From Holdemania massiliensis AP2 (GTDB taxonomy: Bacteria; Bacillota_I; Bacilli_A; Erysipelotrichales; Erysipelotrichaceae), in contig NZ_HE998567.1 in assembly GCF_000327285.1 (NCBI RefSeq), positions 1,077,210 through 1,141,209 on the forward strand: a stretch of 64,000 nucleotides of DNA. Direction: 5' to 3'. Under the pieces are notes generated by a model, which saw only the letters and a list, made by a program, of their open reading frames with translations, ran no database searches and was not told the origin of the DNA. Numbering within the stretch: the stretch's first letter is position 1; every line of letters starts with the position of its first letter. Shown here in pieces: positions 10,719 through 40,962 of the stretch. The position numbers were made by a program, and so were the translations under genes.

Positions 10719-11791
10719 CTGTGTTTCGCCTCACTTTTAACAATCGCTTCCCACAGACCGTTGAGATAAGTTGCGCCTAAAGCCCGGTCGTACAGTCCAT
10801 AACCCGGCATCGCCTTTTCATCCCAGATCATCCGGCCATGATCCGGCCGAATCGGGCCGTCAAAGTCGATATCGTACAAAGCCTTCATGATCTCATACAT
10901 ATCAAAGCTGCCGTCGCTGGACAGATGCGCGCTTTCCTCAAAATCATCCGGTGAATTGAATTTCAGATTGCGGACATGCGCAAAGTGAATCCGGCCTTTG
11001 AGCGATCGGATCATGTGCGGCAGATCATTTTCCAGGTTTGTCCCGTAAGACCCGGAACAGAACGTCACGCCGTTATGCGGATTATCGACCATGTTCATCA
11101 TGCGCTGAATGTTGCTTTCGTTGATGATGATCCGCGGCAGACCGAAAACGCTCCAGGCTGGATCATCCGGATGAATCGCCATATTGATATTGTACCGATC
11201 ACAAACCGGCATGATCGCTTCCAAAAAGATTCTGAGATTTTCAAACAGCTGTTCTTCATCAATACTGCGGTACAGCTCAAACAGCTCCTGAATCCGCGCC
11301 ATCCGCTCCGGTTCCCAACCCGGCAGAATAAAGCCGTTGGTATCCGCGCCGATCGAGGCAAACATTTTTTCCGGATTCAGTGCGTCGACGGCTTTTTGGG
11401 TATACGCCAAAACCGTTGACCCATCAGCCCGCTGACGTGCCAGTTCAGTTCTTGTCCAGTCAAATACCGGCATAAAATTATAACAAACCATGTGAATATC
11501 GGCTTCGCCAAGATTCTTTAATGTCTGGATATAGTGATCGATCATTTCATCGCGCTCAGCGGTTCCGGCCTTGATCGCATCGTGCACATTGACGCTTTCA
11601 ATACCGCTGACGCGCAGTCCAGAAGCCTCAACCTCCTGCTTCATCGCCGCAATTCTTTCCGGCGTCCAGATTTCACCTGGCAGCGTATCATAGAGCGTAG
11701 TGATGACGCCGCTGACGCCTGGAATCTGACGGATTTGTTTTAATGTGACTGAATCATAACCGGTGCCATACCACCGTAATGTCATTTCCAT
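10709..11791 (-). CDS. uxuA: mannonate dehydratase
   Basis: Dehydrates D-mannonate to 2-keto-3-deoxy-D-gluconate, the committed step of the glucuronate branch. The length of 360 residues fits UxuA. Recognisable segments are MTLRWYGTGYDSVTLKQIRQIPGV at the N terminus (TIM barrel), NMAIHPDDPAWSVFGLPRI, FCSGSYGTNLENDLP, IHFAHVRNL and PIRPDHGRMIW, containing the conserved His/Cys metal-site residues. AAGGAGG is 10 bases ahead of the ATG. It overlaps uxuB downstream. A hairpin at 11818-11843 lies between it and the upstream alcohol dehydrogenase gene, so expression relative to the first two operon genes may be tuned. Confidence 0.94.
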   Translation of the reverse strand: MEMTLRWYGTGYDSVTLKQIRQIPGVSGVITTLYDTLPGEIWTPERIAAMKQEVEASGLRVSGIESVNVHDAIKAGTAERDEMIDHYIQTLKNLGEADIHMVCYNFMPVFDWTRTELARQRADGSTVLAYTQKAVDALNPEKMFASIGADTNGFILPGWEPERMARIQELFELYRSIDEEQLFENLRIFLEAIMPVCDRYNINMAIHPDDPAWSVFGLPRIIINESNIQRMMNMVDNPHNGVTFCSGSYGTNLENDLPHMIRSLKGRIHFAHVRNLKFNSPDDFEESAHLSSDGSFDMYEIMKALYDIDFDGPIRPDHGRMIWDEKAMPGYGLYDRALGATYLNGLWEAIVKSEAKHRCD

Positions 11792-11817
11792 AGATCTTAT
11801 TCCTCCTTCTTTATAAA

Positions 11818-11843
11818 AGAAAAGGGACGGCTTGTCCCTTTGT
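11818..11843 (-). terminator. intra-operon terminator-like hairpin before uxuA
   Basis: AAAGGGAC at 11821-11828 and GTCCCTTT at 11834-11841 form a perfect 8-bp stem; on the minus strand it is followed by TCTTTTAT. It lies between the alcohol dehydrogenase stop and the uxuA ribosome site, so it could lower readthrough or protect the upstream mRNA end. Confidence 0.55.
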
Positions 11844-11854
11844 TTGCAGACTAT

Positions 11855-12919
11855 TCAGCCGGCGTACTGTTCAAGATCTTCAATCGCCTTACGGATCAAG
11901 GCCTGCGTCACCGGATATGGAACATGATTTAGTTCCTGATTCTTTTCCGCCATTTCCAGCACATCGCACAGCGGATCCTCGATCGTCAGCTCCAGATCAG
12001 CCAAACAAACCGGCAGACCGATCTGACGATGGAAGGCGTAGGCTTTTTTCAGCATATCCATCTGGCCGTCCATCATCAGCTGAACCAGCGTGCCGTAAGA
12101 AACGACCTCGCCATGCAGATGCTTTTTCTCGATATGCTCGCGAACCGTCAGTCCATAGAACAGCGCATGCGCCAATGCCGAATTGTAATCCGGATGCACC
12201 AACAGCGATACACTGCCGGTAGAAATCAGAATGTTCTGGATGATCTGTTCCAGATCATCGCTGACTTCCTGCTTCTTCGCGGACTGCAGGGCGCTGGCAC
12301 CATGGGCAATCACCGGCTCAAAGCACATCGCACTGATCGTTCGACCTAATTCACTGGCATAATCGAGCTGATCATTTCGGGCTGAGAACGTACATTCCAC
12401 ATGCTTCGCCATCGTATCACCGATCCCGGCCCACAAGTATTGGATCGGGGCTTCGGCAATCACTGAGGTGGGAATCAGGCAGTGCACCGGAGCGGATTTC
12501 AGCTTCGGAATATCCTTAAACGAACCGTCAGCGTTATAGAGGATGCTGATCTTGGTGACCGCGGCACAGGTCGAAGCAATCGTCGCAATCGTAACAACTG
12601 GTTTATCCAGCTGATCGCCGACAAGCTTAACCGTATCCAGGCATTTGCCGCCGCCGATGCCAACCAAGACATCCGCACGCTGAACATCCTCGTCCTGAGT
12701 CAGTTTGGCCACATTCTCATACGTCGCTTCATGGCCATAAACGACTTCTTTGACGACTTCCAATGAACCCAATGCTGGAATCAACAAGGCTTTGCATGCG
12801 GCATAAGCTTTTTCACCATGAATCAGTGCCACCTTGCGGCCATACGGCAAAACGACATGTTCAAGATCCTTTAGCGCATCCGCGCCGATCGTGTAGCGTG
12901 GAAGGGTCACCTTTTTCAT
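11855..12919 (-). CDS. iron-containing alcohol dehydrogenase family protein (glycerol-dehydrogenase-like)
   Basis: NAD-dependent dehydrogenase of 354 residues in the GldA-like branch of group III alcohol dehydrogenases. The NAD-binding GIGGGKCLDTVKLVGD motif and the TIASTCAAVTKISILYN segment are typical. Metal ligands are suggested by GIGDTMAKHVE (Asp, His), HALFYGL and KKHLHGEVVSYG. The substrate is not known; in a uronate operon a sugar acid, keto-deoxy acid or polyol is more likely than glycerol. Its start is one base from the stop of the upstream isomerase gene, so the pair is translated together. Confidence 0.82.
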   Translation of the reverse strand: MKKVTLPRYTIGADALKDLEHVVLPYGRKVALIHGEKAYAACKALLIPALGSLEVVKEVVYGHEATYENVAKLTQDEDVQRADVLVGIGGGKCLDTVKLVGDQLDKPVVTIATIASTCAAVTKISILYNADGSFKDIPKLKSAPVHCLIPTSVIAEAPIQYLWAGIGDTMAKHVECTFSARNDQLDYASELGRTISAMCFEPVIAHGASALQSAKKQEVSDDLEQIIQNILISTGSVSLLVHPDYNSALAHALFYGLTVREHIEKKHLHGEVVSYGTLVQLMMDGQMDMLKKAYAFHRQIGLPVCLADLELTIEDPLCDVLEMAEKNQELNHVPYPVTQALIRKAIEDLEQYAG

Positions 12920-12920
12920 G

Positions 12921-13598
12921 TTATTTGCCTAAGACTTCACGAACGTAAGCTTCCAGCTCAGCATTCTGGCAGCCGGCAAAGAAGCAGTCCTGGAAACGCT
13001 GAGTCAGGGCTTCCTTCACCATGTTCTGATCCAAAGCCTTTAAGCCTTCCAGAACCGGCTTGCCTACAGCAGCCTTGACTTCATTCAACAGTGCTGCATT
13101 GCGGTTCTGCGATTCTTTGCGGCCTGGTTCATTCGGATAACCCATGCCCTTCGGAGAACCAAAGGCTTTCTCAAAAATCGTGTGAATGTTCAGTTCACCG
13201 CCCCAGCCGAAGCCTTTGGCATATGGAATCGACAGTGCGTTGCCATTGTTGATCTGCAAGAACAGATACGCATCCGATGGTTCGATGCAGTAGCCGCAGA
13301 CAACACCCGGATAGGCATTCAGCGACATCAGCGCACCCTGGCCTGTGCCGCAGCCGGTGACGACGAAATCCACTGCGCCGCTGTTGAGCAGCAGGCAGGC
13401 TTGAATGCCCAGATGCAGATAAGTTAAGCGCGGATTTTCTTCCGTATACGCTTCCGGAACATCCTTGTCCAGCAGCGGTTTTGCCATCGCGGTGTTATAG
13501 ACGGTATGGCCCATCGGTTCGACGACGTCTTTCAGCTGTTCCAGAATAATCGTGTTCTTTGGAGCCTGGCTGAATTCATTCATTAATGCAATTTTCAT
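12921..13598 (-). CDS. RpiB/LacA/LacB family sugar isomerase, DhuI-like
   Basis: Cytoplasmic isomerase of 225 residues. The family signature is VVTGCGTGQGALM, with the conserved Cys and Gly residues of the RpiB/LacAB active site, and the N terminus MKIALMNEFSQAPKN plus a long C-terminal extension set it apart from plain ribose-5-phosphate isomerase B (about 150 residues). The same length and N-terminal style are found in streptococcal DhuI, which isomerises 4-deoxy-5-hexosulose-uronate from unsaturated glucuronate. I favour that role because an SDR of the DhuD/KduD type ends the same operon. The start at 13598 has AAAGGAG upstream; a longer frame to 13703 would cover the leader hairpin and promoter. 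Confidence 0.78.
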   Translation of the reverse strand: MKIALMNEFSQAPKNTIILEQLKDVVEPMGHTVYNTAMAKPLLDKDVPEAYTEENPRLTYLHLGIQACLLLNSGAVDFVVTGCGTGQGALMSLNAYPGVVCGYCIEPSDAYLFLQINNGNALSIPYAKGFGWGGELNIHTIFEKAFGSPKGMGYPNEPGRKESQNRNAALLNEVKAAVGKPVLEGLKALDQNMVKEALTQRFQDCFFAGCQNAELEAYVREVLGK

Positions 13599-13625
13599 GT
13601 GTGTGTTTCTCCTTTTCTTCTTTTT

Positions 13626-13649
13626 AACAGGAACATTGGTTTTCCTGTT
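13626..13649 (-). promoter_or_regulatory. perfect inverted repeat in the leader of the uronate operon
   Basis: AACAGGAA and TTCCTGTT (8 bp each) are separated by 8 bases, downstream of the predicted -10 and about 30 bases upstream of the first start codon. It could be a repressor operator or an mRNA hairpin. No T-run follows, so it is not a terminator. Confidence 0.5.
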
Positions 13650-13664
13650 CCTGTCTATAAAAGT

Positions 13665-13693
13665 ATCATAAACGATTCGTGCGGGATTATCAA
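13665..13693 (-). promoter_or_regulatory. sigma-A-type promoter of the uronate operon
   Basis: On the minus strand TTGATA (13688-13693) and TATGAT (13665-13670) are exactly 17 bases apart, about 67 bases before the start of the DhuI-like gene. Confidence 0.6.
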
Positions 13694-13803
13694 TCCTCGT
13701 CATTTTAATGTGGTAAATTGTCGTTTATCCAACTGTCAAAACGAAGGATCCAAAATCCTTATTTCCATGAACGATCAAACACCTCCCCAGCTGGAATTTC
13801 CTG

Positions 13804-20706: not shown

Positions 20707-21591
20707 TTATTCGTTGCCTGTCGAAACAGACTCACCATAGAAATACTGATTATTGGAGCCGATCACTCTGATGTACTCCTTCACAAACTGCTTTACGGCA
20801 GCTTCGGCCGTCATGCACAGTTCCAGATAATCGGCATTCGGTTTTGCTTCCAGCTTTTCCAGCATGGCATTTTTTGCGGCATGGAAAGCATCGGTGCAGA
20901 CGTTGATCTTATTGATGCCGCCTGCCACGGCCTTGCGGATATTTTCTTCGCCGCTGCCGCTGCCACCGTGCAGAACCAACGGCATATCCAATGCCTTTTT
21001 CAGTTCAGCCAGACGTTCAAAGTTCAGCACTGGGACATAACCCTTCGGATAATCGCCATGGGCCGTTCCGATCGCCACCGCCAGAGCATCACAGCCAGTA
21101 TCCTTTACGAACTGCTTTGCTTCTTCGACATTGGTATACAGATCAACCTTACTGTTGTCGCCATCAGCTGCCTGACCGACGTGTCCCAGCTCTGCTTCGA
21201 CACAGATTCCATGCGGATGAGCTAAGGCGCAGACCACTGAAGTCCGCTTGACGTTTTCTTCATAAGGATAGGAAGAAGCGTCAATCATCAGACTGGTGAA
21301 GCCGTTATGAATGGCCGTAACCATATCTTCCAGCTTTCCGCCGTGATCCAGGTTTAAGGCAACCGGGATGCTGGCACGTTCAGCCAGTTCTTTCACTAAC
21401 GGAACGATTTCCGTCAGATGCGCATGCTTGCCGATCTGGCCTGGGCCCATCTGAACGATAATCGGGGAATGTTCTTCCTCGGCGGCGCTGATCACAGCGC
21501 GGGCCATTTCCATATTGATGCTGTTGACTGCCATCACCGCGTAATTATGCTGATGCGCGTGCTGCAGGATATCCTTCATCGAAACTAACAT
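20707..21591 (-). CDS. class II fructose-bisphosphate aldolase family (ketose-bisphosphate aldolase)
   Basis: Zinc-dependent aldolase of 294 residues that would cleave a ketose phosphate to DHAP and an aldehyde. Zinc-ligand segments are visible: ALNLDHGG, VEAELGHVG, AIGTAHGDYPKG and LVLHGGSGSG, and the DHAP-binding NINVCTDA-like part reads INKINVCTDAF. The family includes FbaA, GatY/KbaY and IolJ, which cannot be separated by eye. As the last gene of a fructose-type PTS operon it probably cleaves the PTS product after a second phosphorylation, or a deoxy-keto-acid phosphate as in IolJ. Confidence 0.9.
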   Translation of the reverse strand: MLVSMKDILQHAHQHNYAVMAVNSINMEMARAVISAAEEEHSPIIVQMGPGQIGKHAHLTEIVPLVKELAERASIPVALNLDHGGKLEDMVTAIHNGFTSLMIDASSYPYEENVKRTSVVCALAHPHGICVEAELGHVGQAADGDNSKVDLYTNVEEAKQFVKDTGCDALAVAIGTAHGDYPKGYVPVLNFERLAELKKALDMPLVLHGGSGSGEENIRKAVAGGINKINVCTDAFHAAKNAMLEKLEAKPNADYLELCMTAEAAVKQFVKEYIRVIGSNNQYFYGESVSTGNE

Positions 21592-21653: not shown

Positions 21654-22748
21654 TTACAGATTGATGTCCAGGTCGACGATTTCTTCTTCCTCTTCCTGAC
21701 CTTCTTCACTTGGCTTTTTGATTGCTGAATAGATGACGCCGGTCGCAACCGAGCCCACGATCAGCGCAATGACTGCCCACATCCAGTTGGTCATCATCGG
21801 GAAGACGAAGATTCCGCCGTGTCCGGCAACCGATTCAACACCCATGGCAACGGCAATGCCGCCGGCCAGCGCTGAACCGATCATGGAAGCTGGAATGAAG
21901 CGTGCCGGATCGGCCGCAGCAAACGGCAGTACGCCTTCAGTAATGAAGCACAAGCCCATTGGGAACGCCGTTTTCGCTGTTTCTTTTTCTGTCGCTGAGA
22001 ATTTCTTCGGCGTCAGCAAGGTCGAAACGAAGACTCCGCATGGAGGCGTCATGCCGCCGATGATCTTCGCGGACATTGGGCCATAGATGCCGTCAGCACC
22101 CAGCGCATTGGCTGCCATGGAAGCTGTCTTGTTGACCGGGCCGCCCATATCGAAGCCCATGCCAGCGCCGATAACCGCACCGATGATGAATTTGGAACCG
22201 CCGTTGAGGCTCATGATCCAGCCCTGCAATGCATTCATCGCAATCGCCATTGGCTTAGCCACAATCGCGAAGAAGGCAACACCGCAGACGAAGGTCGCAA
22301 TGACTGGAATAATCATAACCGGCATCAGACCAACCATCCACTTCGGAAGTTTCCAGGTCTTCATCCACTGAATGAAATAACCGATCACAAAGGCCATCAG
22401 CAAGCCGCCCAAGAAGCCGGCTTTCGACTGGTTTGCCGCATAACCGATAATGAAGCCCGGAACAATGCCTGGACGTTCAGCAATCGAGTAGCACACACCG
22501 GCCGTCATGACCGCCACGCCGAAGCTCATCGCATAGTCAGATAATTTGGAAATCATCCACCAGAACTGTTTCCAATCGAAGCAGTTCAGGTTGGTGAAGA
22601 TGGTAGCGCCCGCTTCCGGAGCGTAGTTGCCGACTTCCCATCCGCCGAAGCCTTTCGCTAAGGCACCCAGGATACCACCGGCCACGATCATCGGAATCAT
22701 GTACGAGATGCCGGTCATCATGTGTTTTTTAAAGTTCAACTTTTTCAT
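21654..22748 (-). CDS. PTS fructose-type transporter subunit IIC
   Basis: Membrane channel subunit of 364 residues with eight to ten helices. The fructose-family features are MMTGISYMIPMIVAGGILGALAKG at the start, GFDMGGPVNKTA (the conserved GGPVNK loop), and PPCGVFVSTLL. The C-terminal tail is acidic (EEGQEEEEEIVDLD), unusual but outside the membrane part. It follows IIB with an 18-base gap. The sugar is unknown; fructose, mannose-like or a modified ketose are possible. Confidence 0.94.
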   Translation of the reverse strand: MKKLNFKKHMMTGISYMIPMIVAGGILGALAKGFGGWEVGNYAPEAGATIFTNLNCFDWKQFWWMISKLSDYAMSFGVAVMTAGVCYSIAERPGIVPGFIIGYAANQSKAGFLGGLLMAFVIGYFIQWMKTWKLPKWMVGLMPVMIIPVIATFVCGVAFFAIVAKPMAIAMNALQGWIMSLNGGSKFIIGAVIGAGMGFDMGGPVNKTASMAANALGADGIYGPMSAKIIGGMTPPCGVFVSTLLTPKKFSATEKETAKTAFPMGLCFITEGVLPFAAADPARFIPASMIGSALAGGIAVAMGVESVAGHGGIFVFPMMTNWMWAVIALIVGSVATGVIYSAIKKPSEEGQEEEEEIVDLDINL

Positions 22749-22766: not shown

Positions 22767-23078
22767 TTATTTTTGGATCTTCTTTTCGATCGTCGCGATC
22801 AAGCTCTTTGGATTCTTCATCGCCACGCTGATCGGAATGTCAACGGTCGGCTTGCCGGCGAAACGTTCCATTCCGCCGACGGCGATATCATGAGCGACGA
22901 TGACAACGTCGGCCGCGGCGATCTCTTCCGCTGTCAGTTTGTTCTGCGCGCCGATCGTCCCCTGCGTTTCGATCTTGCACTGATGGCCTGCCGCCTCGGC
23001 TGCATTCTGAATTTTTTCAGCCACGATATAAGTGTGAGCGATGCCTGCAGTACAAGCTGTAATTCCTACAATCTTCAT
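22767..23078 (-). CDS. PTS fructose-type transporter subunit IIB
   Basis: Phosphocarrier of 103 residues. The phospho-Cys is Cys9 in ITACTAGIAHTYIVAE, the classical fructose IIB loop. A short leader of about 140 bases carrying a cre-like site and two palindromic operators separates it from the IIA gene, so it may have its own regulated start in addition to readthrough from the PRD-IIA part. Confidence 0.94.
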   Translation of the reverse strand: MKIVGITACTAGIAHTYIVAEKIQNAAEAAGHQCKIETQGTIGAQNKLTAEEIAAADVVIVAHDIAVGGMERFAGKPTVDIPISVAMKNPKSLIATIEKKIQK

Positions 23079-23221: not shown

Positions 23222-23674
23222 TTAGTTGAGGAATAAATCAATCAATTCCTGCTTTGTTGAAACTTTCTGCAGTTTTTCAACGCGTTCGTCGTTGCCCAGC
23301 TTGCCTGCCAGCTCCGCTAACAGCATCATGTGGTTGGAGGCAAAGTCCGCATCGTCGCTGACGCAGAATAAGAAGACGAGGTTGATCGGCTCATCATCAT
23401 AGCTTTCCCATTCAATTTCATTCTCACAGCGGCCGATCGCAATCCCGATTTTCTTCACCGCATGGCTTTTGCCATGCGGAATCGCAATGTGGTTTCCCAT
23501 TCCGGTGATGCCTTCGGCTTCCCGAATATAGATGTCTTTGACAAACTGTTCGATATCCTCAATGTAGCCGGCTTCGAATAAATGCTGGCTCAAGTCATGC
23601 AACACCTCATCCTTCGTTGTGCTTTTTAAATGCAGGTCGATGATGTTTTCATCCAAAATATCCGCTAATGCCAT
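23222..23674 (-). CDS. PTS fructose-type transporter subunit IIA
   Basis: Phosphocarrier of 150 residues, PTS_EIIA type 2. The active-site His is H67 in GMGNHIAIPHGKS. The rest follows the family pattern (REAEGITGMGNHIAIPHG, then LVFLFCVSD). It lies between the PRD regulator gene (36-base gap) and IIB, so the regulator and its cognate transporter form one transcription unit. Confidence 0.94.
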   Translation of the reverse strand: MALADILDENIIDLHLKSTTKDEVLHDLSQHLFEAGYIEDIEQFVKDIYIREAEGITGMGNHIAIPHGKSHAVKKIGIAIGRCENEIEWESYDDEPINLVFLFCVSDDADFASNHMMLLAELAGKLGNDERVEKLQKVSTKQELIDLFLN

Positions 23675-23710: not shown

Positions 23711-25678
23711 TTACTTGATTAAATACTTGTAAAAATCAACGTTGGTCTGAAAATTGCGCAGGATGTTCACCTGTTCATCCGTTCCGACCAGCTTGATATA
23801 CTGCTTATAGAATGCCTGGGTCCTACGGATCTCAAAGTCGTTGGTCATCTTGACGACTAACAGAAAGATCACATCGACGCTTTCGCTGTCCCACAGAATC
23901 GGTTTTTCCAGCGTGGCGATCACCACCCGGGCTTCATTGATCTCATTTTGATCGCCATGCGGAATCGCGACGCCGTTGCCGATCGAGGTCGGCGTAAATG
24001 CTTCACGGTCCAATACGGTCTTCACATATTTGCGCGTGACATAGCCTTTGCGGACCAAGCGTTCACAAAGGAATTTCAGCAGAGCCGGTTTATCCTCGAT
24101 CTGCAGGTGCGTAAAGATTAAATCCGGCTCGAACAGCTGATGGCAGTCGGCATCGAACTGAGCTTCACTGACTTTGTTGAGAATTGTTTTGCGGATCCAG
24201 TGATTGATCTTCTGAATCGAAGCATCCGACAGGAAATCGTCGATTTCCACGATCCGCGGATCCTGGACATTCAGCTGGCGCGTAGTCAGAATCAAATCGA
24301 CATCGGTGACCTTTTCAATCTTGAAGTCATGAACACTGACCACCTTAACCGAATGAATCAGACTGAACGAGCGGCAGATTTTATCGCACAGCATCTGGTT
24401 GATGCCCATCCCCGACGCGCTGACCAGAATCGTTCTGACCGGATTTTCATTGCGCTCCAAGGCCGATTGAATGTAAAGAACGATATAGCCGAGTTCATCC
24501 TCACTGACCTTCAGGTCAAAGTATTCCTCAAACAGCACGGAGATCAGCCAGGCGACGCGGAATGTCTTTTTGTATTCGGTCTTAATATAATTGGTTAAGC
24601 CGTTGGTATGTCCGCGTTCATAGCGCAGCCTGAACAAGGTCGGCCGCATGTGAATCAATAAGCCGTGGTACAGCGCGTCATCATGGTTCAGATCAACATT
24701 GAGAACGTTGCTGACAACGGAGATGATCTTGCGGACAAACTCCTGCAGCTTGTTGTCATATTCCCTTAATACCTCGCCGCTGTCGGCGCTGTAGCCGCTG
24801 TCGATCAGCTTGGAGCATAGAATTTGAATTGACAGAAACGCTTTTTCCTCAGCCGGCAGCGTCATGTTGAAATGCGTGCCGAGCTTTTTGAAGATCGCTT
24901 CGGCAAAGCTGTATTCGTTGTACTTTTGAAGCATCGTCAGCTCCTCATCCGAAAATTTCAGCCGGCGGCTGTTTTTCTGCTGATTCTGATAGATCGCCAG
25001 GGACGCATAGACGAGCACCTCATTAAACGATTCCTCGGCGAATTCAAAGCTCCATTCCTTTTCTGTTTCAATAATGCCGCGGCGCACAGCGTCGAGGTCC
25101 AGTCCCGGCATGAAGAATAAAATACTTTCATCGACATTCGTTTCTGTATCGAATTTCAGAATGAAATGTTTCAGCGCCAGCCGGTAAGACACCTCGTTAT
25201 ACGCCAGCTCCAGCCCCTTATTGCGCACAACATTCAGTTCAATATTGAACAGCTTCAGCCAGCTGCGGCAGTCGTTGATCACCTTGAGTGTTGTCGGGAC
25301 GCTGAGATAAAGCTGAGAAGCCAGCTGCTTTGTCGTCAGGGTGTTGTTTTTCGTACTTTTTAAGACCAGCTTCAGCGCGGTTGCCGTGCGGATCTGATCG
25401 TTCTGCAGCACATCCATGTTATCGGAGTTGCTGATTAGAGAATTCAGTTTCAGCCGCTGCTGTTCATTGGCGTCCAGCCAGATTCCAATGCGTGGTTTCT
25501 TGCATATCTCACCGAGCTGATTGTCCAGCAGCATGTTGTTGATGACTTCCACTTTCGTGCGGATCGTTTTTTCTGACAGTCCAATTTCTTCCGCCAGCTG
25601 ACCGGTCGTCACCATGTCTTTATTTAACAGCGCCTTCAAAATCAGCTGGGTATAGTAATTAGACTTTTGATCATTCAT
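23711..25678 (-). CDS. PRD-domain transcriptional regulator with PTS IIA-like domain (MtlR/ManR type)
   Basis: 655-residue regulator. Order: N-terminal HTH (VTTGQLAEEIGLSEKTIRTKVEVI), a second HTH-like part (LTTKQLASQLYLSVPTTLKVIND), PRD1, PRD2 (SEDELGYIVLYIQSALER), a IIB-like domain and a C-terminal IIA-like domain with phospho-His H574 (GNGVAIPHGD). The IIB-like loop reads LVSASGMGINQ: the phospho-Cys of active IIB domains is absent here, so this domain may sense without being phosphorylated. PRD2 has Tyr where a second His often stands. It is the first gene of the operon it presumably controls, and a terminator-like hairpin precedes it. Confidence 0.9.
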   Translation of the reverse strand: MNDQKSNYYTQLILKALLNKDMVTTGQLAEEIGLSEKTIRTKVEVINNMLLDNQLGEICKKPRIGIWLDANEQQRLKLNSLISNSDNMDVLQNDQIRTATALKLVLKSTKNNTLTTKQLASQLYLSVPTTLKVINDCRSWLKLFNIELNVVRNKGLELAYNEVSYRLALKHFILKFDTETNVDESILFFMPGLDLDAVRRGIIETEKEWSFEFAEESFNEVLVYASLAIYQNQQKNSRRLKFSDEELTMLQKYNEYSFAEAIFKKLGTHFNMTLPAEEKAFLSIQILCSKLIDSGYSADSGEVLREYDNKLQEFVRKIISVVSNVLNVDLNHDDALYHGLLIHMRPTLFRLRYERGHTNGLTNYIKTEYKKTFRVAWLISVLFEEYFDLKVSEDELGYIVLYIQSALERNENPVRTILVSASGMGINQMLCDKICRSFSLIHSVKVVSVHDFKIEKVTDVDLILTTRQLNVQDPRIVEIDDFLSDASIQKINHWIRKTILNKVSEAQFDADCHQLFEPDLIFTHLQIEDKPALLKFLCERLVRKGYVTRKYVKTVLDREAFTPTSIGNGVAIPHGDQNEINEARVVIATLEKPILWDSESVDVIFLLVVKMTNDFEIRRTQAFYKQYIKLVGTDEQVNILRNFQTNVDFYKYLIK

Positions 25679-25932: not shown

Positions 25933-25957
25933 TAAAAAAGTCCGAATATCGGACTTA
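25933..25957 (-). terminator. terminator of the DeoR-family gene
   Basis: AAGTCCGA (25938-25945) and TCGGACTT (25949-25956) form a perfect 8-bp stem with a 3-base loop, followed on the minus strand by TTTTATCGG. It overlaps the stop codon. Confidence 0.85.
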
Positions 25958-26707
25958 GTCAATCAGCTGGATTTTGAGATTTTTGAAATACTGCCGGTAT
26001 TTTTCACTGGGCTGTTCATCGGTGATCACCCCGGTAATGCCTTCAAGATCGAAAAATTTATTAAACGCCACCGTACCGAATTTCGAGTGATCGGCAACAA
26101 TCCAAACTTCCGCAGAATTCTGGATGACATGCCGTTTGATCACGCCTTCGCTGAAATCGGTATTCGTCAGTCCCTTGGAAATCGACAGGCCGACCGTCGA
26201 GATGAACGCTTTATTATAGTAGTACGGATAAAACGAGGTATCGGAAAAGAAGGTCTGGGTTTCCCTTCGCAGCTTCCCGCCCAGACAGATCCCCGTCAGA
26301 TTCTCAGCTTCGATTAACGCGTTCATGACATGCAGGCTGTGGGAGATCACGGTGACTTCCCGCTGATGAAGATACGGGATCATCGTAAAAGCCGTGGATC
26401 CGGAGTCCACAAAAATCACATCGCCGTCCTGCACAAGTCCTGCGGCCAGCTGACCGATTCGGTTTTTGGCTGCCGCGTTGGTCTGTAGCCTGGAAGAAAG
26501 GGTCGGCAGGGTTGCCGCGCTGATCTTTTCCGGCTTGGCCAGGACGCCGCCGTACACCTTGGTGATCACATTGCGGTCTTCCAGCTCCTTCAAATCCCGG
26601 CGCAGTGTCTGCACGGAGATGTTGAACAGCTTTTGAAGCTCCTCATTGCTCACCGAGCGGTTTTTGCGGATATAGGCTTCCATTTCCTGCAAACGATTGT
26701 ATTTCAT
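25955..26707 (-). CDS. DeoR/GlpR family transcriptional regulator
   Basis: Repressor of about 250 residues responding to a sugar phosphate or related effector. N-terminal HTH: VSNEELQKLFNISVQTLRRDLKELEDRNVITKVYGGVLA; C-terminal DeoR sensor domain with VIFVDSGSTAFTMIPYL and WIVADHSKFGTVAF. The frame opens at a TTG (26728), but GGGGAG lies inside that stretch and is well placed for ATG 26707. It is divergent from the isomerase-transaldolase operon, and a perfect inverted repeat lies between them, so it most likely represses that operon and itself. Confidence 0.9.
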   Translation of the reverse strand: MKYNRLQEMEAYIRKNRSVSNEELQKLFNISVQTLRRDLKELEDRNVITKVYGGVLAKPEKISAATLPTLSSRLQTNAAAKNRIGQLAAGLVQDGDVIFVDSGSTAFTMIPYLHQREVTVISHSLHVMNALIEAENLTGICLGGKLRRETQTFFSDTSFYPYYYNKAFISTVGLSISKGLTNTDFSEGVIKRHVIQNSAEVWIVADHSKFGTVAFNKFFDLEGITGVITDEQPSEKYRQYFKNLKIQLID

Positions 26708-26722
26708 GGTTTCTCCCCGACC

Positions 26723-26764
26723 TTTCAACTTTATTCATTATAGACAAGTTGAATCCATGTGACA
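26723..26764. promoter_or_regulatory. divergent promoter region with inverted-repeat operator
   Basis: TTCAACTT (26723-26730) and AAGTTGAA (26745-26752) form a perfect inverted repeat with a 14-base spacer. On the minus strand TTGTCA (26759-26764), 17 bases and TATAAT (26736-26741) make a consensus promoter for the DeoR gene, with the repeat bracketing the -10. A direct repeat GACAAG also occurs. Confidence 0.6.
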
Positions 26765-26782: not shown

Positions 26783-27571
26783 ATGTTAAGAAAAAATGAA
26801 GATCTGCATCCGGGTTTCAATCTGATCTGCGATGAGGAAAAAGATCAGATGTTCATGCACATTCAGCTGCTGATCGGCCGCCGGGGTGAGTCCTGGCCGA
26901 TTGAATCCGAACAACAGGAAACGGCGCTGCTTTTGTTAAGCGGAACCCTCACCTATCAATATGAGGGAAAAACCGTCACAGCGAAGCGGCAGGATTTGTT
27001 TCACGATGATGCGACCTGCCTGCACGTCTGCCGGAAAACCCCGGTGGTGCTGACCTTTGAGGAAGACGGCGAGGTTTTAATTCAGCAAAAGATAAATCCC
27101 CAGACCTTTCCCAGCATGCTGTATGACAAATCCAACATTGACAAACAGTTCTTCGGCGAAGGCAAGCTGGCCGCGACGACCAAGCGCCAGGTGACGACGA
27201 TTTTAGATTATGAGCGGACGCCGTACTCGAAGATGGTCTTGGGTGAAATCACTAACTTCCCCGGCATCTGGAGCAGCTATCCGCCGCATCATCATCCTCA
27301 GCCGGAAGTTTATTTCTACAAATTCGATCATCCGCAGGGCTACGGCAGCTGCTTCATGGGCGAGGACGTCTATAAAATCACGCACAACAGCGTCGCCATG
27401 ATTCCCGGCGGACTGACGCACCCGCAAAACGCCGCGCCGGGCTATGCGATGTTCTATGTCTGGATGATTCCGCATCTAGAAGGCAATCCTTGGATTAAGA
27501 CACGAACCTTCGATCCGGATCATGAATGGGTCAACGATGAAAACGCTGAATTCTTCCAGCTTGAACAATAG
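26783..27571 (+). CDS. KduI/IolB-family isomerase (5-deoxyglucuronate isomerase-like)
   Basis: Cupin-fold metal isomerase of 262 residues. IolB hallmarks: an N-terminal MLRKNEDLHPGFNLI part, the metal-binding cluster PPHHHPQPEVYFYKF and the second cupin motif IPGGLTHPQNAAPGYAMFYVWMI. Start 26783 has AAAGGAG upstream. Classical IolB acts in inositol breakdown, but none of IolC, IolD, IolE or IolG is nearby; instead a transaldolase and an iron alcohol dehydrogenase follow. From memory, sulfoquinovose isomerase of the Firmicute sulfofructose-transaldolase pathway belongs to this KduI/IolB family, so that is an alternative function worth weighing. Confidence 0.85.
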   Translation: MLRKNEDLHPGFNLICDEEKDQMFMHIQLLIGRRGESWPIESEQQETALLLLSGTLTYQYEGKTVTAKRQDLFHDDATCLHVCRKTPVVLTFEEDGEVLIQQKINPQTFPSMLYDKSNIDKQFFGEGKLAATTKRQVTTILDYERTPYSKMVLGEITNFPGIWSSYPPHHHPQPEVYFYKFDHPQGYGSCFMGEDVYKITHNSVAMIPGGLTHPQNAAPGYAMFYVWMIPHLEGNPWIKTRTFDPDHEWVNDENAEFFQLEQ

Positions 27572-27594
27572 AAAAGAAAAAGGAGAAACACAAC

Positions 27595-28650
27595 ATGAAT
27601 AAACTATATGAAACCGTCACGCAGTTTCCGCAGACCGAAGTCTGGAACGACTCCTGCAGCTGCGCGGAACTGCAGTACGCGATCGACAACGGCGCCAGCG
27701 GTGCGACCACCAATCCAGTCATCGTCGGCAATGTCCTGAAGAAAGAACTGCCGCAATGGGAAGAAACGATCAAAACGATCATCGCTGACCATCCGGCTTA
27801 TACTGAGGATGAAGTGGCCTGGGATGTGATCAAAGCCCTGGGCGCCAAGGCCAGCAAGCTCTTACTGCCACTGTTTGAAGCCAGCCAGGGTCAGAAAGGC
27901 CGGATTTCCTTTCAGACCAACGCCAAGTTCTATCGCAGCAAGGACAAGATGGTTGAGCAGGCCTGCGAGTTAGCGGCGGTCGTTCCCAATTCCCAGATCA
28001 AAGCTCCGACATCGAAAGCCGGCGTCGAAGCATTCGAGGAATTAACCTATCGCGGCATCAGCATCAATGCGACGGTTTCCTTCACCTGCGCCCAGGCGAT
28101 TGCGGTGGCGGAAGCGGTTGAGCGCGGATTGGCCCGACGGGAAGCTGAAGGACTGCCGACCGCCGAAATGCATCCGGTCTGCACGATCATGGCCGGCCGA
28201 ACTGACGATTACTTAAAAGCCTGGGTGAAGCAGCATGACGTGCTGATCAGTGCTGAAGCGTTAGACATGGCCGGGGTCGCGGTGGTCAAGAATGCTTATC
28301 GCTTATATCAAGAACGCGGTTACCGCGCCAAACTGTTAGTGGCAGCCTTCCGCAATCAGCATCATTGGGAAGAATTCATCGGCGGGGATATCGTGCTGAC
28401 GATCACCAGCGACTGGCAGCGCAAGTACAACGGCAGCGATGTGGAAATCAAAAACAACATCGACACGCCGGTGGAATCCAAACTGATGGAGGAGTTAATG
28501 AAGCTGGATGAATTCAAGAAAGCTTATTTGGAAGACGGACTGAAACCGGAAGAATTTGAGCATTACGGAGCATTCTTAGCGACGATGAACCAGTTTTTGG
28601 GCGGCTATGACGATTTAGTCAGGCTGATCCGCAGCTATATGATTAAATAA
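27595..28650 (+). CDS. transaldolase family protein
   Basis: 351-residue TIM-barrel aldolase that makes a Schiff base with a ketose. N-terminal VWNDSCSCAELQYAI, NGASGATTNPVIVG (the TTNP signature) and QIKAPTSKAG hold the expected Asp and the Schiff-base Lys (K136). It is longer than the about 220-residue FSA-type enzymes and has an extra C-terminal helical part. It could transfer a C3 unit from a sugar or from 6-deoxy-6-sulfofructose to glyceraldehyde 3-phosphate. It lies 23 bases behind the isomerase and 11 bases before the alcohol dehydrogenase, in one operon. Confidence 0.88.
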   Translation: MNKLYETVTQFPQTEVWNDSCSCAELQYAIDNGASGATTNPVIVGNVLKKELPQWEETIKTIIADHPAYTEDEVAWDVIKALGAKASKLLLPLFEASQGQKGRISFQTNAKFYRSKDKMVEQACELAAVVPNSQIKAPTSKAGVEAFEELTYRGISINATVSFTCAQAIAVAEAVERGLARREAEGLPTAEMHPVCTIMAGRTDDYLKAWVKQHDVLISAEALDMAGVAVVKNAYRLYQERGYRAKLLVAAFRNQHHWEEFIGGDIVLTITSDWQRKYNGSDVEIKNNIDTPVESKLMEELMKLDEFKKAYLEDGLKPEEFEHYGAFLATMNQFLGGYDDLVRLIRSYMIK

Positions 28651-28661
28651 GGAGAAAAAAC

Positions 28662-29813
28662 ATGGCTAATCCCTTTTTAACTCCGGCCAAAATTATCAGC
28701 GGTTCTGCAGCGCTGGAAGATGCCGGATCATCCCTCGCCACGCTGGGTAAAAAAGCACTGATCGTCACCGATCGGATGATGGTTCAGCTTGGCAATCTGG
28801 ACAAAGTTCTGAACATTTTAAAGCAACATCACATCGCTTATTCGATTTATGCTGAAATCAACAGTGAACCGTGCGATACGATGATCACCGCAGGTTTAAA
28901 ACAATATCAGACAGAACAGTGCGATTTCTTCATCGCATTGGGCGGCGGATCCCCGATTGATTCGATGAAGGCGATCGCGATGATGAGCGTCGAACCGGAT
29001 CGTCCGCTCAACACCTATATGGGCCACCCGGTCGAAGTCCCGCTGCCGAAAAAGGTCGCGATTCCGACAACCGCCGGCACAGGCTCTGAAGCAACGCAGT
29101 TTACGATCATCACCGACACAGAGAACGACGTCAAGATGCTCTTAAAAGGTGGCAGCCTGATTCCCGATCTGGCGATCATTGATCCGCAGTTTACCATGAC
29201 CGCTCCTAAGGGCGTTACCAGTGCGACTGGCATTGACGCGCTGTGCCATGCCATTGAAGCTTACACATCCCGACAGGCTCAGCCGTTATCGGATACCTTT
29301 GCCCTCAGTGCCGTCAAGCGCATCTTCAACAATTTAGTGGAAGCTTACGAACATGGCGATAACGAGGAAGCTCGGATTCAGATGTCATTGGCAGCCTTGG
29401 AAGCAGGGATCGCCTTCAACAATTCTTCGGTTACGATCGTCCACGGCATGAGCCGTCCGATCGGCGCGCTGTTCCATATCGCCCATGGGTTAAGCAATGC
29501 GGTGCTTTTGGAGGTCTGCATGAACTATGTCAAAGACGGCGCTCTTGACCGATTCGCGGATCTGGCTCGGTATTGCGGCATGACGCAGACGGAAGATGAC
29601 CAACAGGCCGCTGATCTGTTTATCGAAAATCTGACTGCTCTGCTGGCAAAACTCAATGTCCCGACACTGGCGCAGCTGAACGTTGATCGTGATCAATTCT
29701 TCAGCGCCTTAGAAAAAATGGCGCATGACGCCGCAGTATCTGGTTCCCCGGCCAATACCCGCAAACCGATTACTGAAGCGGCGATGATCGAACTGTATCG
29801 TCAGCTTTGGTAA
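28662..29813 (+). CDS. iron-containing alcohol dehydrogenase (FucO/1,3-propanediol dehydrogenase type)
   Basis: NAD(P)-dependent, metal-dependent dehydrogenase of 383 residues, reducing a small aldehyde. GGGSPIDSMKAIA binds the nucleotide; PTTAGTGSEATQF is the family signature. Metal ligands are D192, H196 (GIDALCHAIEA), H261 and H275 (VHGMSRPIGALFHIAHG). At residue 265 there is Arg where FucO-type enzymes have His (HGMAHP). A cationic residue here might suit an anionic substrate such as sulfolactaldehyde, which is speculative. Last gene before a terminator; ribosome site AAGGAG. Confidence 0.9.
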   Translation: MANPFLTPAKIISGSAALEDAGSSLATLGKKALIVTDRMMVQLGNLDKVLNILKQHHIAYSIYAEINSEPCDTMITAGLKQYQTEQCDFFIALGGGSPIDSMKAIAMMSVEPDRPLNTYMGHPVEVPLPKKVAIPTTAGTGSEATQFTIITDTENDVKMLLKGGSLIPDLAIIDPQFTMTAPKGVTSATGIDALCHAIEAYTSRQAQPLSDTFALSAVKRIFNNLVEAYEHGDNEEARIQMSLAALEAGIAFNNSSVTIVHGMSRPIGALFHIAHGLSNAVLLEVCMNYVKDGALDRFADLARYCGMTQTEDDQQAADLFIENLTALLAKLNVPTLAQLNVDRDQFFSALEKMAHDAAVSGSPANTRKPITEAAMIELYRQLW

Positions 29814-29895: not shown

Positions 29896-30867
29896 ATGAT
29901 GAAACCTATGCGAATGACTCATTTCAACAATGCTAACGTGGACGTCAGCCAGTTAGCGGTCGGAACCTGGGGCCTGGACAGTCTGCGCTGGAATGGCGCA
30001 ATGAGCGAGACCGAAGCGATTGAAGCCATCCATGCGATGGTAAAAGGCGGCGTCAACCTGATCGACACCGCTCCCAATTACGGCAATCACAGCTCAGAAC
30101 AGATTGTCGGCCGAGCGATTCAGGGCTTAGATCGGTCAAAAATCTTCATTTCCACCAAGTTCGGCACCCACAACGATCTGTTTACCGGCGGTGTCTTCCG
30201 CGACGCGCGCTTCGGCACTGTCATGGAAGAAATGGCCAGCTCCCTGCGCAATCTTCAAACTGATTATGTCGACTTCTATTTCCTGCATTGGCCGGATACA
30301 CATACGCCGATTGCGGAAACGATGTGCGCTCTGAACTTTCTAAAGCAACAAGGCAAAATTCGATTTATTGGTTTATCCAACTGTGATCAGGCTTTATTGG
30401 AAGAAGCGATGAAATACGGTCAGGTTGATGTTATTCAGCCGCCGTTCTCAATGATCGATCAGCGGTATAAGTCCTTGATGAGCTGGTGTCACAAACACGG
30501 GATTGATACGATGACCTACGGTTCTTTAAGCGGCGGCATTCTGACCGGACAATTCCGCGAAATTCCTGACTGGCCTGCCAACGACGTGCGGTTATCCTTT
30601 TATAAAGGATTTCGTCCGGATGTCTTTCCGCGGGTTATGGAACTAATGAGAACGCTGGATGAAATCGCTGCAGCTCACAATGCGCCTGTCAGCCAAGTCG
30701 CCATCAACTGGTCAACGCAGAAAACGTATGTATCCACTGCCTTAGTCGGAGTCCGCAGCGTTCGGCATGTCGCAGAGAACATCGAGACCTTTGCCTGGAA
30801 GCTCAGTGACAACGAAATGCAGAAAATCGACGCCAAGCTTGAGGCACTTCAGCTGGATCAGCTTTGA
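29896..30867 (+). CDS. aldo/keto reductase
   Basis: NADPH-dependent carbonyl reductase of about 323 residues, AKR TIM barrel. The catalytic tetrad is visible: Asp and Tyr in NLIDTAPNYGNHSSE, Lys in IFISTKFG and His in DFYFLHWPD; the cofactor end has IRFIGLSNCD and VALVGVRSVRH-like sequence. Several in-frame ATGs follow AAAGG at 29891-29895 (29896, 29899, 29908), and 29908 (MRMTHF) may be the true start. It follows the isomerase-transaldolase-dehydrogenase set and may reduce a product of the same pathway. Confidence 0.9.
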   Translation: MMKPMRMTHFNNANVDVSQLAVGTWGLDSLRWNGAMSETEAIEAIHAMVKGGVNLIDTAPNYGNHSSEQIVGRAIQGLDRSKIFISTKFGTHNDLFTGGVFRDARFGTVMEEMASSLRNLQTDYVDFYFLHWPDTHTPIAETMCALNFLKQQGKIRFIGLSNCDQALLEEAMKYGQVDVIQPPFSMIDQRYKSLMSWCHKHGIDTMTYGSLSGGILTGQFREIPDWPANDVRLSFYKGFRPDVFPRVMELMRTLDEIAAAHNAPVSQVAINWSTQKTYVSTALVGVRSVRHVAENIETFAWKLSDNEMQKIDAKLEALQLDQL

Positions 30868-38056: not shown

Positions 38057-39490
38057 ATGAAATCTCTTAATCGTCAAAATTATCCGCTGCCGCAGCGGCC
38101 AATTCGCATTCTGCAGTTCGGCGAGGGAAATTTCCTGCGCGCCTTTGTCGATGATTTCATATCTCAGTTAAATGAAAAAACCGACTTTAACGGCAGCGTC
38201 TGTGTCGTGCAGCCGCGGCCGCACGGACGAGTTCAGGATTTAATGCAGCAAGATGGCTTATATACGCTGCTGCTGGAAGGAAAAAAGCAAGGGCAGCCAA
38301 TCCGTGATGTGCGGATGATCGATGTGATCGAACAGGGCATTGATCCCTACACTGACTACGCCGCTTTATTGCAGCGGGCCGCTGATCCGCAGTGTCGGAT
38401 CCTTATATCCAATACGACAGAAGCCGGAATCACCTATGTTGACGAACCGGTAACGCTGAAAACCTGCCCGCAGAGCTTTCCGGGCAAGATTCTCGCCGTA
38501 CTGAAGCAGCGTTATCAAACCTTCCACGGGCAACGGGATCAGGGCTTTGAGATTCTCTGCTGTGAACTGATTGAAAACAACGGTGATACCTTAAAAGACA
38601 TTGTTTGCCGCAAAGCCCGTGAACAGAGTGAGCCGCAGGCGTTTCTGGATTGGATTGAAGCAGCCAATCATTTCTACAATACGCTGGTTGACCGCATCGT
38701 TCCCGGTTATCCCAAAGAGCTGGCCGCCGCCTTGGAAGCAGAACTGGGCTATCACGACGCTTATCTGGTGAAAGGCGAAATTTATCACAGCTGGGTCATT
38801 CAGGGTGATCCTTCTTTAACCTCCGTTCTGCCGCTGGACAAGCTGAACGAGAACATTATTTTTACCCGTGATCTCACGCCATACCGCGACCGCAAGGTCG
38901 CGATCCTCAACGGATCACATACGTGCATGGTGCCCTTAGGCTTGCTGGCAGGGCTGGAAACGGTGAAGGAAACAGTCGAAGATCCGCAGATCCGTGCCTT
39001 CCTTAAAGCTTTCTTAAAAGAAGAAGTCTGGCCGTCGCTGAATTTCAGTGAAACGGAGCTGGCAGCCTTTACTGCCGACGTCTTTGAGCGCTTTGAAAAC
39101 CCGGATATCCGGCATGAACTCATGAGTATTTCCCTGAATTCCATTGCCAAGTTCAAGACGCGAGATCTGCCGGCGATGCAGCATTATGTTAAAACACACA
39201 AGACCTTGCCGCCGCACGGCTGTTTCGCCTTAGCTGCGCTGATCGTTTTAATGAGCCGGCGCCAAGCTGACGGCACGCCGCTGGTCAGCGAAAGCAATGA
39301 AGTGCTGGCCTGTTGGCAGGCTTGGGATGAGCACCAACCGGAAGACACAGTGCAGGCAATGCTGAATCTGCCGTTATGGAAAACCGAATTTTCCGCCCTG
39401 GAAAATATCGCTGAACGCTTATCCGCGATCATCCGCTCCATTACCACGCTCGGTCTGCGCGAAGCGATGACCAAGGAGGTTCATGCATGA
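38057..39490 (+). CDS. uxaB: tagaturonate reductase (altronate oxidoreductase)
   Basis: Interconverts D-tagaturonate and D-altronate with NAD(H) in galacturonate breakdown. 477 residues, mannitol-dehydrogenase-like superfamily: ILQFGEGNFLRAFVDDFI nucleotide-binding start, CCELIENNG and ILNGSHTCMVPLG in the catalytic domain. Close to the UxuB family but distinguished by the N-terminal QFGEGNFLRAF sequence and by the following altronate dehydratase gene, with which it shares a 4-base ATGA overlap. A GGAG-type ribosome site precedes the ATG. Confidence 0.93.
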   Translation: MKSLNRQNYPLPQRPIRILQFGEGNFLRAFVDDFISQLNEKTDFNGSVCVVQPRPHGRVQDLMQQDGLYTLLLEGKKQGQPIRDVRMIDVIEQGIDPYTDYAALLQRAADPQCRILISNTTEAGITYVDEPVTLKTCPQSFPGKILAVLKQRYQTFHGQRDQGFEILCCELIENNGDTLKDIVCRKAREQSEPQAFLDWIEAANHFYNTLVDRIVPGYPKELAAALEAELGYHDAYLVKGEIYHSWVIQGDPSLTSVLPLDKLNENIIFTRDLTPYRDRKVAILNGSHTCMVPLGLLAGLETVKETVEDPQIRAFLKAFLKEEVWPSLNFSETELAAFTADVFERFENPDIRHELMSISLNSIAKFKTRDLPAMQHYVKTHKTLPPHGCFALAALIVLMSRRQADGTPLVSESNEVLACWQAWDEHQPEDTVQAMLNLPLWKTEFSALENIAERLSAIIRSITTLGLREAMTKEVHA

Positions 39491-40962
39491 AAAAAACACT
39501 GCACATTCAGCCCAACGATAATGTAATCGTCGCCCTGGAGCCGCTCTATGCCGGGGAAACCGCTGCCGGCATCACACTGCTTGAAGATATCCCTTCCGGC
39601 CATAAGTTTGCCTGTCTATCCATTGCTGCCGGTCAGCCCGTCATCAAATATGGTCAGCCGATCGGACACGCGACGGTTTCCATTCAACCTGGACAATGGG
39701 TTCACAGTCACAATTTGAAAACCTCCCTGTCCGGAACGCTGGATTACCAATACAATCCGGTTTCCATTCCGATCGAGGCCCGGCCCGGCAGCCGTCCGGT
39801 CATGGCCTATCGCCGTGAGAACGGCACGATCGGCATCCGCAATGAATTATGGGTCATCGTGACAGTTGGCTGCATCGGCGATACTGCCCGCAATATCGTC
39901 AACACCTTCCGGCAGCGTCATCCGCTGGACGACATCGACGGCATCTTCACCTTTAATCATCCGTTCGGCTGTTCCCAGATGGGACAGGACCATCAGAATA
40001 CCGTGAAGATCCTGCAGGATATCGTCACCCATCCCAATGCCGGCGGTGTGCTTGTGCTGGGGCTGGGCTGTGAGAACAATCAGCTGAAACCCTTCTATGA
40101 CCGCCTGGAACAGATCAATCCGCAGCGCGTGCGCTGTCTGAATTGCCAAGACGTGGAAAATGAGGTTCAGAGCGCGGTTGAGCTGCTCGAACAGATTTAC
40201 CAGGCCATGCGTCATGACCGGCGTGAAGTCTGCGATCTCAGCGAATTCTCCTTCGGCTTAAAATGCGGCGGATCGGATGGCTATTCCGGCATTACCGCGA
40301 ATCCTCTGCTGGGGCGCTTCTCGGATAACCTTGTTCGCTATGGCGCCAACATTGTGCTCAGTGAAGTCCCGGAGATGTTCGGGGCTGAACAGCTGTTGAT
40401 GAACCGGGCTGCAGACAGGGCAACGTTTGATAAGCTGGTGGCGATGATCAACCGCTTTAAGGACTACTTCCTGTCCAATCATCAGGTCGTTTATGAAAAT
40501 CCATCGCCGGGCAACAAAGCCGGCGGCATTACCACGCTGGAGGAAAAGAGTCTGGGCTGCATCCAGAAAGCCGGCACGTCGCAGATCAACGATGTGCTTG
40601 ATTACGGAGAGAGGATTCAGAAAAAAGGCGTCAGCCTCGTGTATGGGCCAGGCAATGACCTCGTATCCACAACCACGCTGGGCGCCTGCGGCTGTCAGGT
40701 TGTCTTGTTTACAACCGGCCGGGGAACCCCGTTCGGCGGCTTTATTCCAACTTACAAAATCGCGACCCATTCTGAACTGGCGGCTCGAAAACCGCATTGG
40801 ATTGACTTCAACGCCGGCATTCTGACCGAAGGTGTCACGCTGGATGAAGCGGCAGAGCAGTTAGTAGAAGATCTGATCACCGTGCTGGAAGGGAAGAAAA
40901 CCCGCAACGAAATCAGCGATCTGCGCAGCATCGCGATCTTCAAGCAGGGGGTTATCTGTTAG
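39487..40962 (+). CDS. uxaA: altronate dehydratase
   Basis: Converts D-altronate to 2-keto-3-deoxygluconate; iron-dependent enzyme. 491 residues, with the N-terminal SAF domain (ALEPLYAGETAAGITLLEDIPSGHKFA) fused to the catalytic part (GYRRENGTIGIRNELW-type, FNHPFGCSQMG, LGLGCENNQL, LKCGGSDGYSGITANP and STTTLGACGCQVVLFTTGRGTPFGG). This full-length fusion is the typical bacterial UxaA. It completes the galacturonate arm, while UxuA/UxuB at 9-12 kb complete the glucuronate arm. Confidence 0.95.
   Translation: MKKTLHIQPNDNVIVALEPLYAGETAAGITLLEDIPSGHKFACLSIAAGQPVIKYGQPIGHATVSIQPGQWVHSHNLKTSLSGTLDYQYNPVSIPIEARPGSRPVMAYRRENGTIGIRNELWVIVTVGCIGDTARNIVNTFRQRHPLDDIDGIFTFNHPFGCSQMGQDHQNTVKILQDIVTHPNAGGVLVLGLGCENNQLKPFYDRLEQINPQRVRCLNCQDVENEVQSAVELLEQIYQAMRHDRREVCDLSEFSFGLKCGGSDGYSGITANPLLGRFSDNLVRYGANIVLSEVPEMFGAEQLLMNRAADRATFDKLVAMINRFKDYFLSNHQVVYENPSPGNKAGGITTLEEKSLGCIQKAGTSQINDVLDYGERIQKKGVSLVYGPGNDLVSTTTLGACGCQVVLFTTGRGTPFGGFIPTYKIATHSELAARKPHWIDFNAGILTEGVTLDEAAEQLVEDLITVLEGKKTRNEISDLRSIAIFKQGVIC

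Follow-up and report, generated by a model that had tools for sequence, protein, structure and literature searches.

The three-gene operon at positions 26783-29813 of the stretch analyzed here (64,000 nucleotides of contig NZ_HE998567.1 of Holdemania massiliensis AP2, hereafter the window) probably encodes, as judged from sequence and gene context, a module for lower inositol (5-deoxyglucuronate) breakdown, where a transaldolase-family enzyme (TAL) would replace both the kinase IolC and the aldolase IolJ. Together, IolC and IolJ convert 2-deoxy-5-keto-D-gluconate (DKG) to DHAP and malonate semialdehyde. On a wider scale, it appears reasonably likely that there is a kinase-free inositol branch leading from DKG and glyceraldehyde 3-phosphate (G3P) to fructose 6-phosphate (F6P) and malonate semialdehyde, that an island of the Erysipelotrichaceae switches between TAL and IolC, and that genomes may import DKG or 5-deoxyglucuronate.

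The isomerase, TAL and iron alcohol dehydrogenase (Fe-ADH) genes are all located on the + strand and are separated by spacers of 23 and 11 bp in an operon-like arrangement. The isomerase reading frame starts with an ATG at 26783, just downstream of an AAAGGAG motif. The preliminary description had assigned these three genes to one operon; the open reading frames match its coordinates exactly, and Pfam agrees with the families it named. The operon and the surrounding genes are as follows:

20707-21591, - strand: class II ketose(-bis)phosphate aldolase, possible IolJ-type partner of the PTS (F_bP_aldolase, 319 bits)
21654-22748, - strand: PTS EIIC, fructose type (TIGR01427, 268 bits, cut-off 158)
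22767-23078, - strand: PTS EIIB, fructose type
23222-23674, - strand: PTS EIIA, fructose type
23711-25678, - strand: PRD/EIIA-type transcriptional regulator, part of the PTS group (synteny in L056, L057, L061, L063, L065 and others)
25955-26728, - strand: DeoR-family regulator, divergent from the operon (DeoRC, 149 bits)
26783-27571, + strand: IolB-like (KduI/IolB family) isomerase, predicted 5-deoxyglucuronate isomerase (Pfam KduI/IolB, 163 bits)
27595-28650, + strand: long transaldolase-family enzyme (TAL), predicted DKG transaldolase (Pfam TAL_FSA, 137 bits)
28662-29813, + strand: Fe-ADH, predicted malonate semialdehyde reductase (Pfam Fe-ADH domains, 164 and 150 bits)
29896-30867, + strand: aldo-keto reductase following the operon (Pfam Aldo_ket_red, 223 bits)

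The gene order of the operon is kept in two further Holdemania genomes (locus L022, which equals L056, and locus L157), and the aldo-keto reductase gene downstream of it is likewise kept in L056 and L157. The DeoR gene is flanked on the - strand by a promoter-like site (26765-26737) and a terminator-like stem (25956-25938), both of which are consensus matches only. Elsewhere in the window, two uronate-type gene groups (9111-13703 and 38057-40962) comprise mannitol-dehydrogenase family, LacAB_rpiB/DUF3666 isomerase, tagaturonate-reductase-like and altronate-dehydratase-like genes, and similar genes were also found near several TAL islands.

In the proposed pathway, the IolB-like isomerase would convert 5-deoxy-D-glucuronate to DKG. 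Drawn as a ketose, DKG is 5-deoxy-D-fructuronate, and its C3/C4 configuration, derived by hand from the structures, is that of fructose 6-phosphate and sulfofructose. Judging from the genomic context, TAL would form a Schiff base via Lys136, cleave the C3-C4 bond of DKG (ketose numbering) and pass the dihydroxyacetone unit to G3P, yielding F6P and freeing malonate semialdehyde, which the Fe-ADH is predicted to reduce to 3-hydroxypropionate. Since F6P would be returned to G3P through phosphofructokinase, the net ATP cost would equal that of the route via IolC and IolJ.

A second TAL copy was identified on the same contig, about 527 kb from the window operon. The two copies share 99% amino acid and 95% nucleotide identity, and the homology stops at the gene ends. 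The second copy belongs to an operon with the order IolD-IolE-IolG-MMSDH-TAL, followed by an ABC transporter ATPase gene, in which IolD (861 bits), IolE (392 bits) and IolG (472 bits) all score above their NCBIfam equivalog cut-offs, while MMSDH falls slightly below its own (430 bits, cut-off 448). The MMSDH of this operon would oxidise malonate semialdehyde to acetyl-CoA. The operon contains no IolB, IolC or IolJ gene, and the best match to IolC in the whole genome (G000) reaches 185 bits at a cut-off of 300. The earlier statement that no other inositol gene is present thus holds for the window and fails for the genome. A simple k-mer comparison revealed no DeoR operator shared by the two TAL promoters.

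Both loci are also present in a second Holdemania genome (G455), where both TAL copies contain assembly gaps, while G456, a sister genome (Holdemania sp. Marseille-P2844), has the window-type locus only and no IolD above the cut-off. In line with the proposal, H. massiliensis has been described as inositol-positive on API 50CH (PMC4062643). Genes for a PfkB kinase, a GH4 glycosidase, amidohydrolase-like and deacetylase-like proteins and an ABC sugar transporter adjoin the inositol operon (L003, 16602-19900; L160, 1-5239) and possibly serve the use of an inositol glycoside. G455 has in addition a third TAL (64% identity; L080, 9112-15220), whose operon encodes PTS EIIB and EIIC, a class II aldolase, a regulator and EIIA, and neither Fe-ADH nor IolB.

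A TAL profile search of 273 genomes of the family revealed a copy at at least 50% identity in about 30 of them. True IolD above the cut-off was found in only three of the 273 (G000, G455 and G439). In all three, TAL lies in the IolD operon, and neither IolC above its cut-off nor a DUF2090 aldolase was found in any of them. This co-occurrence and the second TAL copy in the IolD/IolE/IolG operon support the predicted replacement of IolC and IolJ by TAL. The G439 operon runs IolB (292 bits), MMSDH, TAL, IolD; its MMSDH also lies slightly below the cut-off, and the low MMSDH scores of G000 and G439 count against the proposal.

The island shared by the relatives comprises the DeoR gene, TAL and Fe-ADH, a fructose-type PTS and the class II aldolase gene, which is a constant member; an RpiB-like and a glycerol-dehydrogenase-like gene are often added, and sometimes IolB. 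In most islands, the gene after Fe-ADH or MMSDH encodes a protein of 213-228 amino acids without a Pfam match (for example L024, 11661-12347, and L060, 4615-5256). MMSDH instead of Fe-ADH stands next to TAL in L058, L081, L083, L084 and L003, and in L024/L058 it is a bona fide MMSDH (547 bits) above the cut-off. True IolB adjoins TAL in L081, L083 and L084. Both the Fe-ADH/MMSDH neighbours and these IolB genes support the replacement of IolC and IolJ. However, most island-bearing genomes lack IolD, and the proposed reaction does not account for two constant members, the PTS and the class II aldolase; both points count against it. Our guess is that the PTS imports DKG, or a ketose acid like it, phosphorylating it beside the keto group, and that the class II aldolase cleaves this product to the same aldehyde, while TAL or IolC serves unphosphorylated DKG.

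A search of 395 genomes of the class at an E value of 1e-25 gave no TAL beyond the family, and viral contigs gave nothing beyond 24%-identical matches. A plasmid of Clavibacter carries a 45%-identical TAL beside iolC, iolB and iolD, and sugar-phosphate isomerases and a Gfo/Idh dehydrogenase are annotated there as well; among the matches listed in the plasmid search, none was annotated as IolJ. The Clavibacter cluster supports the link of TAL to inositol, but having both IolC and TAL it also counts against a replacement of the kinase.

Within the family, TAL and a bona fide IolC (322-379 bits, cut-off 300) take turns in the same island and never occur in it together. IolC without TAL was found in the island, or in its contig-end remains, in G307, G349, G400, G401, G403, G409 and G416. 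Among the 32 genomes with Fe-ADH, TAL and IolC co-occur in only one (G483), in which IolC stands alone elsewhere (Fisher p = 5e-5 for the alternation, uncorrected for descent). Both states are found within each of the genera g4 and g8. This alternation supports the proposal that TAL does the work of IolC and IolJ, while the islands of G399 and G394, with neither TAL nor IolC, count against it; in G394, an IolC gene is located about 38 kb from the island.

The isomerase reaches only 95 bits against the IolB model TIGR04378 (cut-off 205), which counts against the proposal, whereas its predicted fold supports it: the nearest structure is Salmonella IolB (2qjv, Z 29.9), ahead of KduI (Z 23.7). The expected His/Glu metal residues are kept. 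The IolB model matches no other protein of this genome, which encodes a separate KduI-family protein elsewhere. We take the window isomerase to be a diverged IolB and regard its substrate as the least certain step of the pathway. Its divergence would also fit another ketose acid, fructuronate or tagaturonate, being split to tartronate semialdehyde, which the Fe-ADH would reduce to glycerate, with inositol use being secondary. The many islands without IolD and the tagaturonate-reductase-like and altronate-dehydratase-like genes near several islands and at 38057-40962 of the window are in line with this scheme. We nevertheless consider it improbable: it is IolC, of the DKG kinase family, that takes the place of TAL in the same island, MMSDH takes the place of Fe-ADH, and true IolB is found in three TAL operons. 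The use of 6-deoxy sugars with release of lactaldehyde, lactaldehyde reductase being a close relative of the Fe-ADH, was set aside in view of the MMSDH swap and the links to IolD and IolC, and a literature search for this version gave no paper.

With the Bacillus-type iol pathway (IolG-E-D-B-C-J-A), the proposed module shares IolD, IolE, IolG and an MMSDH slightly below its cut-off, all four in the second operon, and, as a predicted product, malonate semialdehyde; its isomerase is IolB-like. It differs from it by a transaldolase in place of IolC above the cut-off or DUF2090 and by the Fe-ADH that the window operon has where the second operon has MMSDH. Among the products of dietary phytate, inositol is a major one, and whether it ends up as acetate, propionate or 3-hydroxypropionate matters in the gut. 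In annotation, the inositol pathway is deemed broken when IolC and IolJ are missing; some of these gaps could be filled by a transaldolase with both functions. Both IolJ and the DUF2090 aldolase are missing from 8 of 26 inositol users (PMC9007349). Another way past the IolJ step is the IolC-DUF2090 fusion route (PMC9007349), which, unlike the one proposed here, keeps the kinase; DUF2090 is absent here. Our search, which left most subscription journals outside so that a description elsewhere is possible, found no paper joining inositol catabolism with a transaldolase.

Among solved structures, the 351-residue window TAL comes closest in sequence to the classical long transaldolases of Corynebacterium and Neisseria (E about 1e-15). 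Its AlphaFold model (pLDDT 95.9) superimposes on the Neisseria and Corynebacterium enzymes (3clm, 3r5e) with Z scores of 37.8-39.5. Fold and Schiff-base lysine are shared with these proteins, but the identity is only 22-23%, the catalytic Glu is replaced by Gln, and the context is catabolic and linked to inositol. In a tree, long and short transaldolases are separated with full support. The iolD-linked copies do not form one clade, and those of Clavibacter and G439 are on long branches. Within the TAL clade, Lys136 is invariant, and conservation extends to Arg202 and Arg253, whose positions in the alignment correspond to the site where TalB binds the phosphate of G3P. Where TalB has its catalytic Glu (E96), the clade has an invariant Gln107; all long enzymes examined, those of Clavibacter and Shinella among them, share this Gln, while the short transaldolases of the class retain Glu.

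Gln107 counts against a transaldolase function. The E-to-Q change shifts TalB and the Thermoplasma transaldolase toward aldolase activity, and such variants of both enzymes are among the solved structures. Owing to this residue and these variants, direct aldol cleavage stays a rival within the same pathway: in the manner of fructose-6-phosphate aldolase, the enzyme would split DKG into dihydroxyacetone and malonate semialdehyde, and dihydroxyacetone would then be reduced or phosphorylated, in keeping with the glycerol-dehydrogenase-like gene of many islands. We judge such a cleavage unlikely given that the two arginines at the phosphate site are kept and that TAL has Met199 where fructose-6-phosphate aldolase typically has Tyr. 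A classical pentose-phosphate transaldolase was set aside on account of Gln107 and the restriction to catabolic islands. Remoter TAL paralogs (26-41% identity; L085-L095) in the family have lost Arg202, and several of them have as neighbours PTS genes, a class II aldolase gene and one for a protein of about 220 amino acids. On Shinella plasmids (L171 and L172, 6796-18313), a TAL of 32% identity that likewise has Gln is accompanied by genes for E1/E2/E3-type dehydrogenase components, class II aldolase and triose-phosphate isomerase, which points to a further, unassigned pathway.

The preliminary description had favored sulfoglycolysis, in which an isomerase, a sulfofructose transaldolase and a sulfolactaldehyde reductase act in sequence (sulfo-TAL). 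The evidence agrees with the order of reactions it assumed (aldose to ketose, C3 transfer to G3P, then reduction of the aldehyde set free), and sulfofructose shares the C3/C4 configuration of DKG. The search for DUF4867, which we take to be the known sulfoquinovose isomerase family, gave no match, and its control was likewise silent. The same types of reaction occur in the same order in the known pathway, with an isomerase (SqvD/SftI), a transaldolase (SqvA/SftT) and then YihU or SlaB (PMC12890257). Sulfoglycolysis was rejected because of the type of TAL, the missing GH31 and the operon context. The sulfofructose transaldolase BmSF-TAL (226 residues) is distant from the long window TAL both in the search (E 3e-6, against about 1e-15 for the classical long enzymes) and in fold (Z 22.7, against 39). 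The isomerase is IolB-like, the predicted substrate is a carboxylate, and the partner following TAL is Fe-ADH here and MMSDH-type in some relatives, neither being of the YihU or SlaB type. No GH31 sulfoquinovosidase was found in the genome, which is about 97% complete, while the control was positive in six genomes. TAL, moreover, sits in an inositol operon and alternates with IolC. A sulfoquinovose pathway is accordingly very improbable, and the 5-deoxyglucuronate pathway that had been named as the alternative comes close to the reading reached here. By analogy, the proposed TAL route is best read as the carboxylate counterpart of sulfo-TAL; if true, the sulfo-TAL strategy would also serve carboxylated ketoses. 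In genus g156, G403 and G416, a split transketolase (N- and C-terminal halves; L075, 11407-13298; L076-L078, L169 and L177) joins the island beside an IolB-like gene, an arrangement reminiscent of the bifurcated transketolase/transaldolase route found in users of sulfoquinovose.
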